From the NCBI GenBank assembly GCA_002284855.1, contig CP015603.1, forward strand, positions 806,001-870,000: a stretch of DNA of 64,000 bases. Reading direction: 5' to 3'. Under the pieces are notes generated by a model. The model was not told where the DNA came from and did no database searches. It saw only the letters and a list, made by a program, of their open reading frames with translations. Shown here one piece after another: positions 7,125-11,736 of the stretch. The DNA is from Actinobacteria bacterium IMCC25003. GTDB taxonomy: Bacteria; Actinomycetota; Actinomycetes; Nanopelagicales; Nanopelagicaceae. A program made the position numbers and the translations under genes. Each line of letters begins with the position of its first letter. Position 1 is the stretch's first letter.

Positions 7125-9113
7125 ATGTCCATGATCTCTGTAACCGTCGATGGTGCTGCTCGCAGCATCGAGGCAGATCAGAAGCCGACTCATCTCTTCT
7201 CAGATGCAAAAGAGATCGTAGTCTGCAAAGTTAATGGAGTACTGAAAGATCTCTGGACGGATCTCGTTGAGGGCGATTCAGTCGAAGGCATCTCCATCTC
7301 GTCAACTGAAGGTCTAGCTGTACTTCGACATTCAACAGCCCACGTGATGGCTCAAGCGGTGCAGCAAGTTTTCGCTCAGACTCGACTCGGTATCGGTCCA
7401 CCAATCACCGATGGTTTCTATTACGACTTCGATCCACAGAACCCCTTCAATCCTGATGACCTCGAAAAGATTGAAAGCGCGATGCGCAAGATAGTAAAAG
7501 AAGGTCAGCGCTTTAAGCGCCGCGTGACCACAGAAGCTGATGCGCTGAAAGAGCTGGCTCACGAGCCGTATAAGTGCGAACTTATTGGAATTAAAGGTGG
7601 CGGAACTGACGAGACAAACGTTGAGGTAGGCGGCACTGAACTTACGATCTACGACAATTTAGGTCGCGATGGACAACCCGTGTGGTCAGACCTCTGCCGC
7701 GGACCTCATCTACCTTCAACAAAACATATTCCTGCCTTCAAATTGATGCGAAGCGCAGCTGCTTATTGGCGCGGCTCAGAAAAGAACCCAATGCTGCAAC
7801 GCATCTACGGAACAGCATGGCCATCACAAGATGAACTCAACGCTTATCTCGAACTTTTAGCAGAGGCTGAAAAACGCGACCATCGCAAACTCGGACAAGA
7901 ACTCGATCTTTTCTCATTTCCTGAAGAAATTGGTTCAGGTCTTGCGGTATTCCACCCGAAGGGCGGCATCGTCCGACGTGCAATGGAAGATTATTCGCGC
8001 AAACGACACGAAGAAGAAGATTACGAATTTGTTTACTCACCTCACTTAACGAAGGCTGCGCTCTTTCAGAAGTCAGGGCACTTGGATTGGTACTCCGAAG
8101 GCATGTATCCACCGATGATCATGGATGAAGAGCTCCATGCTGATGGAACCGTCAAGCGCGCAGGGCAGCAGTACTACATGAAGCCGATGAACTGCCCCTT
8201 CCACAACCTTATCTTCCAGTCTCGTCAACGTTCTTATCGCGAGCTACCTCTTCGCCTCTTTGAATTCGGAACTGTCTATCGTTATGAAAAATCTGGAGTG
8301 TTGCATGGCATCACTCGAGCGCGCGGCTTTACACAAGATGATGCACATATTTATTGCACCAAAGAGCAGATGCCAGGTGAACTCGATTCACTTCTCACCT
8401 TCGTCCTCAATCTTCTTCGCGATTACGGACTAGAAGACTTCTATCTGGAACTTTCAACTCGCAACCCTGAAAAATCAGTAGGAGAAGATGCCGATTGGGC
8501 TGAAGCAACTGAAGCACTTCGCAAGGCCGCAGTAGCGCAGAATCTCGAACTCGTTCTCGATGAAGGCGGAGCAGCTTTCTACGGACCAAAGATTTCCGTT
8601 CAGGCCAAGGATGCAATCGGTCGCACATGGCAGATGTCCACGATTCAGGTTGACTTCCAACTTCCACAACGATTCGAACTTGAATTTGCAGCAGCAGATG
8701 GATCTCGCCAACGCCCGGTCATGATTCACCGCGCACTCTTTGGCTCGATTGAGCGTTTCTTTGGTGTTCTCACAGAGCATTACTCGGGTGCATTCCCACC
8801 ATGGCTTGCGCCAGTTCAGGTGATGGCTATCCCTGTTGCCGATAATTTCACCGACTATTTGCACGACGTTGTGAAGCAGATGAAGTCTGCTGGAATTCGC
8901 GCCGAGCTCGACTCCTCGGATGATCGTATGCAGAAGAAGGTTCGCAACGCCCAGTTACAGAAGATTCCATTCATGATCATTGCCGGTGAAGAAGATATGA
9001 ACGCAGGCGCAGTCTCCTTTAGATATCGCAATGGCGACCAGAAAAATGGAATTGCAATTGCAGATGCCATCGCTGAGATCAAGCAGATAGTTGCTGATCG
9101 CAAGCAGGTCTAA
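7125..9113 (+). CDS. thrS: Threonyl-tRNA synthetase
   Basis: This 662-residue class II synthetase has the expected order. An N-terminal TGS domain occupies about residues 1-65. The editing domain follows with HSTAHVMAQ. The catalytic core has [10 protein letters not shown] (zinc Cys) and the RYE-type motif 2 region, and a C-terminal anticodon-binding domain completes it. It charges tRNA-Thr and hydrolyses mischarged Ser-tRNA. A TAGGCT at 7113-7118 ends 6 nt before the ATG, a textbook leaderless arrangement. It heads the conserved thrS-HIT-pgsA-acyltransferase-pimA run of Actinobacteria. Confidence 0.97.
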
Positions 9114-9115
9114 CG

Positions 9116-9640
9116 ATGTCTGAGATCAACGGTGTTGGCATGCCCGATGGATGGCAGCGCTTGTGGGCTCCCCACCGTCTCGATTACTTGCGCGGAGAAA
9201 ATAGACCTCTCGATGGTAATGATGTTGAGTGCCCTTTCTGCCGCATCCCGTCGCTCTCTGATGAAGAAGGCTTGGTTGTAGCGCGCGGCACGACTGCGTA
9301 TGTGGTGATGAATCTCTATCCATACAATCCAGGCCACTTACTTGTATGCGCCTATCGACACGTCGCCGACCTGACTGATCTCACTGATGAAGAGCGACAC
9401 GAAATCACCGATCTCAGTGCGCATGCAATGAAGATCGTACGCAAAGTTTCTAAGGCTGATGGTTTCAATCTCGGAATGAATCAGGGTGCAATTTCTGGAG
9501 CTGGAGTGGCTGCGCATATTCATCAGCATATTGTGCCGCGCTGGTCAGGAGACGCTAACTTCATGCCGATTATTGGAAAGACTAAAGTGTTGCCGCAGTT
9601 GCTTACTATGACTCGCGAAGAGCTAGCTGCCGCTTGGTAG
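9116..9640 (+). CDS. HIT-family nucleotide hydrolase/phosphorylase
   Basis: This 174-residue protein has the histidine triad HIHQH at 134-138 and a CPFC pair at 39-42. Length and location just after thrS match the actinobacterial diadenosine tetraphosphate phosphorylase/hydrolase group. It probably cleaves Ap4A-like dinucleotides, by-products of aminoacyl-tRNA synthetases such as the neighbouring ThrS. It starts 2 nt after thrS and its last 18 nt overlap the convergent minus-strand gene. Exact substrate inferred. Confidence 0.88.
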   Translation: MSEINGVGMPDGWQRLWAPHRLDYLRGENRPLDGNDVECPFCRIPSLSDEEGLVVARGTTAYVVMNLYPYNPGHLLVCAYRHVADLTDLTDEERHEITDLSAHAMKIVRKVSKADGFNLGMNQGAISGAGVAAHIHQHIVPRWSGDANFMPIIGKTKVLPQLLTMTREELAAAW

Positions 9641-10219
9641 TAAATCAATATAACTTTGCACCACATCTATTCCAATGCCCTTAATGAGATTAATGGGAAT
9701 AGCTGGAAATAGAATTCCCGCAGCAAATGCGCCGTCATCCATTTCAGATGTTTGGTCGAAGTACTCTTCTCGAAACTCCCTCACGAGTTCTTCATGTTCA
9801 GGATCGCTGGCACGGATCTGTGGTGGATTCTTTGAGTAATCAATAATCTGCAAATCCTGCAATCTAATGAGGGCAGCTGCCTCTCCGCTGTCATCATGCA
9901 GAACTAGGTAAGGAGTTATGAGTTGATCAAAGACGCGATTTGCAACCATGACCGCATCTTCAAAATCAAGCTCTTGCCCTTCAAGTCCATTGACAACAAC
10001 CAAACGAGGAATCTGGAAGTCATCGAGGGCTGCCCAATTTTCAATTGTCTGTTGGTCGATGCCCGCAGAGGGGTTGATAGCGAAGATTGCTAAATCAGAT
10101 TCACTCTCAGGAGAGTCGGTGAATGAACCGCCGAATGCGGTTGCCACAGATTGGGGAGATGCGCTGGCATGACCGTATATGTGGATACGTTTCACAGCGT
10201 TGGCGCTAGGTGAAGACAT
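9623..10219 (-). CDS. Degenerate EF-G-like G-domain protein (predicted GTPase-dead)
   Basis: The 198 residues track the EF-G G domain from end to end but in shortened form. GHASASPQS (16-24) stands where GHxDxGKT is expected, without the P-loop Lys. SAGIDQQTIENW (51-62) matches EF-G's AxxGVxxQTxxxW. PRLVVVNGLE (71-80) matches PRxxFVNKMD with the G4 Lys and Asp lost. A DD followed by a final IDLLPS (161-196) matches the helix and VDYLPS end of that domain. The stretch that should hold switch I and the DTPGH switch II is absent. The expected function is a non-catalytic binding role, unknown. The gene has its own TAGGCT -10 (10227-10232, minus) 7 nt before the ATG. It sits on the strand opposite the thrS-pimA run and overlaps the HIT gene by 18 nt. 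Confidence 0.7.
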   Translation of the reverse strand: MSSPSANAVKRIHIYGHASASPQSVATAFGGSFTDSPESESDLAIFAINPSAGIDQQTIENWAALDDFQIPRLVVVNGLEGQELDFEDAVMVANRVFDQLITPYLVLHDDSGEAAALIRLQDLQIIDYSKNPPQIRASDPEHEELVREFREEYFDQTSEMDDGAFAAGILFPAIPINLIKGIGIDVVQSYIDLLPSGS

Positions 10220-10226
10220 GCGGGTA

Positions 10227-10236
10227 AGCCTACGAT
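10227..10236. promoter_or_regulatory. Overlapping divergent -10 elements
   Basis: TAGGCT on the minus strand (10227-10232) serves the EF-G-like gene, with its ATG 7 nt away at 10219. TACGAT on the plus strand (10231-10236) serves pgsA, with its ATG 7 nt away at 10244. The two hexamers share bases 10231-10232, so the two polymerases could not bind at once if both are used. Confidence 0.5.
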
Positions 10237-10243
10237 GGTGCCG

Positions 10244-10846
10244 ATGATTAGTAGCGTACTGAAACCAGCTGTCACTCGTGTCATTGAACCAGTGGCCCGA
10301 CTTGCCCTGCGTGCAGGTCTTACCCCAAACATCATCACAGTTCTAGGTGCGCTTGGAGTTCTTATCTCTGCAGGATATTTCTATCCTCGCGAGCAGTATT
10401 TTGTTGGAACACTCTTCATCTGTTTCTTTGCATTGAGTGATCTATTTGATGGCACGATGGCGCGAATCTCTCAGAAGGGCGCAAGTAGGTGGGGAGGATT
10501 CCTTGATTCAACAATCGATAGAATTACTGACTCGGCAATCACGATTGCGATTCTTGTCCCTCTCATCGAATCAGATGACAAACTCTCGTATCTCGGAATT
10601 ATCACTCTCGTGACTGGAATGCTCATTCCTTATATTCGTGCGAAGGCTGAGAGTTACTCCATAGCCTGTTCAGTAGGTATCGCCGAACGTACGGAGAGAC
10701 TCATCATCATCCTCACTGCGATCGGATTTGAAGGACTCAACGTTCCTTATGCACTGGCCATTGGTCTCTGGCTGCTTGCAATTCTTGGCGTCATTACGGT
10801 CATTCAACGAATCAAGGTAGTTCGCGATGGGCTCTTGTCGCAATGA
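10244..10846 (+). CDS. pgsA: CDP-alcohol phosphatidyltransferase, probable phosphatidylinositol phosphate synthase
   Basis: The 200 residues form a polytopic membrane enzyme with the family catalytic motif: Asp66, Asp69, Gly70, Ala73-Arg74, Gly84, Asp88 and Asp92 (DLFDG...AR...GGFLDSTID). It joins CDP-diacylglycerol with inositol-1-phosphate, the first step to phosphatidylinositol mannosides. That substrate is inferred from the next two genes, a PIM acyltransferase and PimA, as in mycobacteria. I prefer ATG 10244 to 10235 because a TACGAT hexamer then lies at the leaderless distance. The 3' end overlaps the acyltransferase start by 4 nt. Confidence 0.87.
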   Translation: MISSVLKPAVTRVIEPVARLALRAGLTPNIITVLGALGVLISAGYFYPREQYFVGTLFICFFALSDLFDGTMARISQKGASRWGGFLDSTIDRITDSAITIAILVPLIESDDKLSYLGIITLVTGMLIPYIRAKAESYSIACSVGIAERTERLIIILTAIGFEGLNVPYALAIGLWLLAILGVITVIQRIKVVRDGLLSQ

Positions 10847-11736
10847 AGGACCGCATCACTCTCGTCGCCTATCTTCTTGGATGGTGGATGGTTCGGACAC
10901 TGCCGGAGAAGTTGGCCTATTCACTCTTCCACTCCATAGGTGAATTTTCGCACCGCCGAAATGGGAAGAGCATTCAAAGGTTGCGCGGAAACCTCCATGT
11001 TGTAAAGCCAGATCTTGATGAGCTGGAACTCGAGACTCTTGTTGCAACGTCCATGTCGTCATATATGCGCTATTGGTGTGACACATTCCGTATTCAAAAT
11101 TGGAGTACGGAGAGAATTCGTAAGACCGTAACGACGACCAATGATCATCTCTTGCTCGATCCCATGAAAGATGGCAGGGGAGTTGTTGTTGCACTTCCTC
11201 ATTCCGGAAATTGGGATCATGCAGGCGCCTACTTCTGCTCACTAGGAATTCCATTAGTAACAGTCGCTGAACGGCTCAAACCTGAGGCACTCTTTCAAAA
11301 GTTTTTGCGGCATAGAGAAGCCATGGGTTTTGAGGTTCTCTCACTCGATAGTCGATCCTTTGTCACACTAGTTAAGCGCGCCAAGGAGAAGCGCCTCATC
11401 GCTTTGGTTGCCGATCGCGATCTCTCCCACTCTGGGATCGATGTCGATTTCTTTGGAAGCAATGCACGAATGCCTGCAGGTCCAGCTCTACTAGCGGTAA
11501 AGACTGGAATTCCTCTTATCGTCGCCCATGTCTCTTATTCCTTCACCGGGATACATATTGATTTCCATCCGGTGCACGTGCCGACGGAAGGAAGCGAATC
11601 AGAGAGGATTGTGCAAACGGTTCAAGCGACTGCGAACCTCTTCGCTCAGGGAATTGCAGAGCATCCCGAAGACTGGCATATGCTGCAGAGAATCTGGGTT
11701 GATGCCCGTGCAGAAAATCTCGAGGAGAGTCGCTGA
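10843..11736 (+). CDS. Phosphatidylinositol mannoside acyltransferase (HtrB/LpxL fold)
   Basis: This 297-residue lipid A acyltransferase-superfamily protein has a membrane-proximal N-terminus and the catalytic HX4D motif at His120-Asp125 (HSGNWD). In Actinobacteria the orthologue between pgsA and pimA acylates a mannose of phosphatidylinositol mannosides at the cytoplasmic face of the membrane. It overlaps pgsA by 4 nt (ATGA) and pimA by one nt (TGATG), so the three are translationally coupled. Function rests on fold plus synteny. Confidence 0.88.
   Translation: MKDRITLVAYLLGWWMVRTLPEKLAYSLFHSIGEFSHRRNGKSIQRLRGNLHVVKPDLDELELETLVATSMSSYMRYWCDTFRIQNWSTERIRKTVTTTNDHLLLDPMKDGRGVVVALPHSGNWDHAGAYFCSLGIPLVTVAERLKPEALFQKFLRHREAMGFEVLSLDSRSFVTLVKRAKEKRLIALVADRDLSHSGIDVDFFGSNARMPAGPALLAVKTGIPLIVAHVSYSFTGIHIDFHPVHVPTEGSESERIVQTVQATANLFAQGIAEHPEDWHMLQRIWVDARAENLEESR

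Follow-up and report, generated by a model that had tools for sequence, protein, structure and literature searches.

The window analysed here is a stretch of 64,000 nt from the genome of Actinobacteria bacterium IMCC25003, which consists of one contig of 1,353,947 bases. Within the window, a small gene (the mini gene, encoding the mini protein) is packed between the gene of a HIT-family protein and that of a phosphatidylinositol phosphate synthase, here called pgsA, whose ATG at 10235 is only 15 nt from the mini gene start (Table 1). The HIT-family protein matched an actinobacterial ATP adenylyltransferase model, at a score below the cut-off of that model. The host genome also encodes bL12 and a single copy of ordinary EF-G, a protein of 701 aa (C1:445145-447199), and no full-length EF-G2 was found in this genome.

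Table 1. Genes, protein parts and candidate promoter elements of the locus. Positions are those of the window unless another locus is named; residue numbers refer to the mini protein.
Feature	Position	Strand	Remarks
thrS	7125..9113	+	Conserved neighbour
HIT-family protein gene	9116..9640	+	Convergent; 18-nt overlap with the mini gene
Mini gene	9623..10219	-	Shrunken EF-G2 gene (EF-G domain I without switch I/II); ATG start, 198 aa
Last strand of the G domain and C-terminal helix	9641..9718	-	Residues 168-193
G' subdomain	9725..9967	-	Residues 85-165; DFDD..TPYLVLHDD.G..ALI.L.DL.I.DYS..EH..LV.EFR.EY
Acidic helix	9740..9805	-	Residues 139-160; equivalent to EF-G helix A_G'
beta5	9980..10009	-	Residues 71-80; degenerate G4 motif PRLVVVNGLE
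beta4 and next helix	10034..10099	-	Residues 41-62; EF-G2 homology resumes here
Degenerate P-loop	10148..10174	-	Residues 16-24; GHASASPQS, no Walker lysine
Candidate -10 box, TAGGCT	10227..10232	-	7 nt before the ATG of the mini gene (leaderless)
Candidate -10 box, TACGAT	10231..10236	+	Putative overlapping divergent box of pgsA, if pgsA starts at ATG 10244
pgsA (phosphatidylinositol phosphate synthase)	10235..10846	+	Divergent neighbour
PatA gene (phosphatidylinositol mannoside acyltransferase)	10843..11736	+	
Intermediates of 343-349 aa	L059 4981-6012; L060 4881-5930; L061 2661-3692		Domain I without switches plus ~100 C-terminal residues

Then, from which protein is the mini protein derived? 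The EF-G2 model NCBIfam NF009377 matched its residues 41-156 with an E-value of 3e-14 and 52.4 bits, below the curated cut-off of 890 bits, and the same model matched 35 of 36 orthologues at E<=0.01. Pfam GTP_EFTU gave 20.4 bits, under its curated cut-off of 26.5. When a profile of the 36 orthologues was compared with the PDB, the best match was 9k0z_7, the "EF-G2 bound 70S ribosome complex of M. smegmatis" (E 2.1e-16), with other EF-G structures ranked beneath it, and the resemblance to EF-G is therefore far above chance. The slot flanked by HIT and pgsA holds, on the opposite strand, the mini gene in the order Nanopelagicales and full-length EF-G2 genes (over 700 codons where complete) in most other families examined, with thrS conserved upstream and PatA-pimA conserved downstream; the exceptions are one locus with a different order of the pgsA-PatA-pimA block (L087) and three in which parts of the block are missing (L091, L092 and L094). 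Since the mini gene and full-length EF-G2 share both slot and orientation, the mini protein is EF-G2 shrunk in place. An origin from canonical EF-G was rejected, because the EF-G2 model scored 52.4 bits vs. 12 bits and the genomic position is the one held by EF-G2. It is thus near certain that the mini protein is the positional orthologue of actinobacterial EF-G2 and a real, conserved pseudo-GTPase. A translation factor of about 700 residues is reduced to a remnant of 198 residues in tiny freshwater bacteria. The original prediction, which had proposed a pseudo-GTPase derived from an EF-G paralogue and had pointed to the thrS-HIT-pgsA junction of relatives, is backed by the profile match, the predicted fold and the positional orthology, and orthologues do lie at that junction, as the mini form or as full-length EF-G2. 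Beyond it go the identification of EF-G2 as the specific parent, the reduction in place, the recurrence in other lineages and the surviving intermediates.

The mini protein is like actinobacterial EF-G2/FusA2 (NF009377; EFG II) in its genomic slot, in the homologous sequence of beta4-beta5 and G', and in its predicted domain-I fold, whereas it has 198 aa instead of ~700 and lacks the P-loop lysine, switch I/II, DTPG, helix B_G' and domains II-V. In the alignment with full-length EF-G2, beta1 with the degenerate P-loop is followed by a jump to beta4, so that only 25 residues separate the P-loop strand from beta4 vs. 87 in the full-length relative L058, and ~24 residues fewer are present at helix B_G'. 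Of the ~90 residues that had been predicted to be missing, the switch I/II region is indeed gone, but the stretch lost between the P-loop strand and beta4 amounts to ~60 residues, with another ~24 at helix B_G'. The motifs named in the prediction were all found, namely GHASASPQS, SAGIDQQTIENW (residues 51-62), PRLVVVNGLE and IDLLPS. In beta5, the mini protein has NGLE where full-length EF-G2 has TKLD. Among 99 distinct orthologues, G1/Walker A (GxxxxGK[ST]) was found in none, and the DxPG and [NTS]KxD (G4) patterns, counted regardless of position, were found in one each; the G3/switch region is absent from the alignment. The P-loop is replaced by a new conserved motif, GHxSAxP. There are 30 invariant columns in the alignment of 81 mini proteins, and the G' subdomain, which is kept with helix A_G', contains the longest conserved blocks. 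As judged from the sequences, a domain-I core that has lost G1-G3 would be incapable of ordinary GTP binding or hydrolysis.

The structure of the mini protein was predicted by AlphaFold2 from the alignment of the 81 mini proteins only, without EF-G sequences, and the resulting model (pLDDT 90.8, pTM 0.88) has the form of EF-G domain I. With this model, Foldseek returned EF-G as the top match (E 3.9e-11) and M. smegmatis EF-G2 at 6.3e-10, and VIA-align, run on the candidates of Foldseek, gave Z 21.0 over 194 residues, with an rmsd of 2.6 A, to residues 5-282 of S. aureus EF-G (9ghc_W). With high confidence, the mini protein is predicted to adopt the fold of EF-G domain I with its G' subdomain, which is a translational GTPase fold rather than an unrelated structure. 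The whole model thus superposes on domain I of canonical EF-G (FusA), although the sequence match to FusA is much weaker and a separate EF-G is encoded in the host genome.

Of 60 genomes sampled as relatives, 56 matched at E<=0.1, a count that includes matches to ordinary EF-G and full-length EF-G2. Across the order Nanopelagicales, matches at E<=0.001 were obtained in 145 of 151 genomes and 15 of 15 genera (101 of 104 when good-quality genomes are considered). The frame is open in nearly all matches of the order and mostly near 200 codons long, with longer stop-to-stop lengths in some. For the pair formed by the window and locus L004, dN/dS is 0.054 for the mini gene, compared with 0.057 (pgsA) and 0.010 (HIT). 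Values of 0.071 and 0.154 were obtained from two further mini pairs in which dS was usable, the second of them at a dS of 0.029 with few changes. The mini gene is under strong purifying selection. Consequently, with the shrunken form conserved throughout the order at such a dN/dS, a decaying pseudogene was rejected. Orthologues with intact motifs, which according to the original prediction would mark this copy as decaying, do exist (L058 and other families), but the copy itself is kept by selection. It should be noted that the first 40 codons (10100-10219) have a dS of 0.109 vs. 0.610 for the rest of the gene in the same pair, and a dN/dS above that of the rest. The low dS suggests an overlapping signal within the coding region, perhaps the divergent promoter of pgsA.

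A promoter of its own had also been ascribed to the mini gene. The sigma-70 scan saw none at its start, but the claim is plausible. At 26 of the 28 loci checked, a TANNNT box is located 4-9 nt ahead of the start, against a background of 0.031, which is the pattern that a leaderless mRNA would show. That the transcript is leaderless is likely but unproven. In at least two of the 26 loci (L010 and L012), the counted box is downstream of the conserved one, CATCGTAGGCT, and therefore their starts may be misplaced. The candidate -10 boxes of the mini gene and pgsA overlap between the two divergent starts (10220-10246; CATCGTAGGCT), an arrangement kept in many genera of the family.

In genus g38, a frame of 749 codons has intact GHSGSGKT, DTPG and TKLD. 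Forms between the complete and the mini protein have survived, namely the proteins of genus g31, which comprise 343-349 aa in frames of 354-363 codons. Their C-terminal 115 residues may contain a remnant of domain V, but domain V is not claimed, because the profile comparison reached the domain V region only at E 0.071. An extra ORF of 195 aa is present in genus g31 between pgsA and the gene of the 349-aa protein (L060 4331-4918).

The mini-family profile was also run over 296 genomes of the class, of which 243 matched, and among the matches listed, short frames outside the order occur in families f34 and f39, where the shortened EF-G2 has likewise lost G1-G3 and kept beta4-G'. Measured with a profile of 12 full-length EF-G2 (716 positions), the reduced proteins of the slot align only from about 80-116 to 225-428, for example 112-287, 109-428, 108-349 and 109-229; the exception is L214, with an odd upstream reading, whose alignment begins at 178. 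Full-length proteins with P-loop and DxPG occur in relatives from the same families. In genus g65 of f34, a domain II remnant is likely, according to a profile match at E 4.7e-4, and the comparison gave nothing for f39 (E 0.44). At L184 (4441-5613), a frame of 391 codons contains part of domain II and the P-loop-like GSAGSGRSS, in which arginine replaces lysine; the other member of this genus examined has a full-length EF-G2. A different kind of shortening is found in family f16, where an EF-G2 of 567 codons (L089 1465-3165) has an intact P-loop and internal parts missing.

How often has the reduction occurred? A tree was built from thrS, HIT, pgsA, PatA and pimA of 82 loci under a fast model, with SH-aLRT support only, and 68 rows were scored on it. 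The tree needs 8 changes, which, taken as irreversible from the outgroup, are 8 reductions, that is, 1 in f39, 5 in f34 and 2 in the family of the window. The last two depend on a branch (support 94) that joins the full-length L058 to the group of 349 aa, and 7 reductions are left if this branch is discounted. The count would be lower, too, if a lineage had received a full-length gene by transfer. For the full-length relative in f39 (G310), EF-G2 and HIT are on separate contigs. In addition, homology that starts at beta4 may partly reflect divergence rather than deletion of the N-terminal part. From these sequences, the same kind of EF-G2 reduction seems to have happened about eight independent times, with beta4-G' kept. 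No EF-G2 homologue was detected at the slot of the f32 loci, nor at that of several loci from f29 and f34, which suggests that the job of EF-G2 is dispensable there; a diverged remnant may be missed at such empty slots, since L062 was missed by the first profile and found by a wider one.

We propose that the domain-I core left by the reduction of EF-G2 works without GTP, as a standby factor that docks on bL12 via helix A_G', a reading whose chances we regard as evenly balanced. The kept piece would be that portion of EF-G2 for whose function GTP was never required. Its acidic helix would dock on the C-terminal domain of bL12, in the ribosomal stalk, and the docking would adjust how translational GTPases reach the ribosome, or would mark idle ribosomes. 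A role at the ribosome is probable at best, and bL12 binding we infer only from the acidic helix. Acidic G' residues of EF-G contact L7/L12 (PMC8446442), and the EFG II subfamily keeps the charged G' region although the G2 motif is relaxed (PMC3150367). EF-G2 of Actinobacteria has no settled function. For M. smegmatis EF-G2, no ribosome-dependent GTPase activity is reported (primary work as cited in PMC9067457 and PMC3832671), which would fit the GTP-independent model.

Helix A_G' has E at positions 141 and 152 in every one of the 81 rows and D/E at position 148 in all 81, while position 155, which aligns with the position of Mtb E221, is D/E in 60 of 81 rows and acidic in 25 of 36. Several points speak against docking on the stalk. 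The invariant acidic positions 141, 148 and 152 are not exactly those known to matter in EF-G, and other lineages with reduced proteins show a weaker acidic pattern (position 152 in 11 of 21, position 155 in 12 of 21). The whole mini protein is acidic (net charge -22 over 198 residues), so the charge of the helix is not unique. Also gone are domains II-V and helix B_G', by which EF-G is fixed on the ribosome, and the job is dispensable in the lineages in which EF-G2 is undetected at the slot. More tentative than the docking model, and in our opinion rather doubtful, is the wider claim that, in streamlined and related Actinomycetota, small GTP-independent proteins with beta4-G' retained as a stalk-contact module have arisen from EF-G2 on at least seven or eight separate occasions.

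Alternatively, the descendant of EF-G2 may act off the ribosome with other partners, such as the products of the phosphatidylinositol/mannoside genes or the HIT protein. The tight conserved packing between HIT and pgsA-PatA-pimA, the loss of domains II-V and the new motif in place of the P-loop would suit such a role, which we nevertheless consider unlikely: full-length EF-G2 occupies the same slot in other families, so that the neighbourhood is inherited and gives no sign of a new link, and the G' part is where the longest conserved blocks sit. The retention of the stalk-contacting subdomain without the catalytic parts, in a fold still predicted to be that of EF-G domain I, would also agree with a competitive decoy that occupies the stalk or the partners of EF-G and slows or gates EF-G instead of standing by. 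This is more improbable still, because a pure inhibitor would presumably be of little use to a streamlined cell. Could the gene be a remnant in slow decay that is not yet lost? The loss of EF-G2 seems tolerated in f32 and in several f29 and f34 genomes, and the raised dN/dS of the first 40 codons points the same way, but the low dN/dS of the whole gene, the open frame in nearly all matches of the order, the 30 invariant columns and the complete predicted fold make slow decay very improbable.

If the GTP-independent standby factor is taken up again, a common function on idle ribosomes may be shared with hibernation factors of bacterial ribosomes, such as the family of PMC10901736, a likeness of function alone. 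A literature search, in which coverage of subscription journals was thin, found no description of a shortened EF-G2 in Nanopelagicales. A natural deletion series in several lineages, with the same fragment kept, reveals the part that selection retains and makes the question testable with a protein of 198 residues, and the route from translational GTPase to pseudo-GTPase is visible with its surviving intermediates. If the wider claim of repeated conversion is true, the selected function of EF-G2 in these bacteria would be a nucleotide-free action on the bL12 stalk, and the small proteins would make up a class of ribosome regulators with translational GTPases as their ancestors.

As for the database records, named ones with close orthologues bear the label Candidatus Planktophila or Nanopelagicaceae, alongside others whose labels are vaguer or open to doubt, and many metagenome records that carry orthologues are titled Bifidobacterium breve or Streptomycetaceae, which is improbable for such loci.
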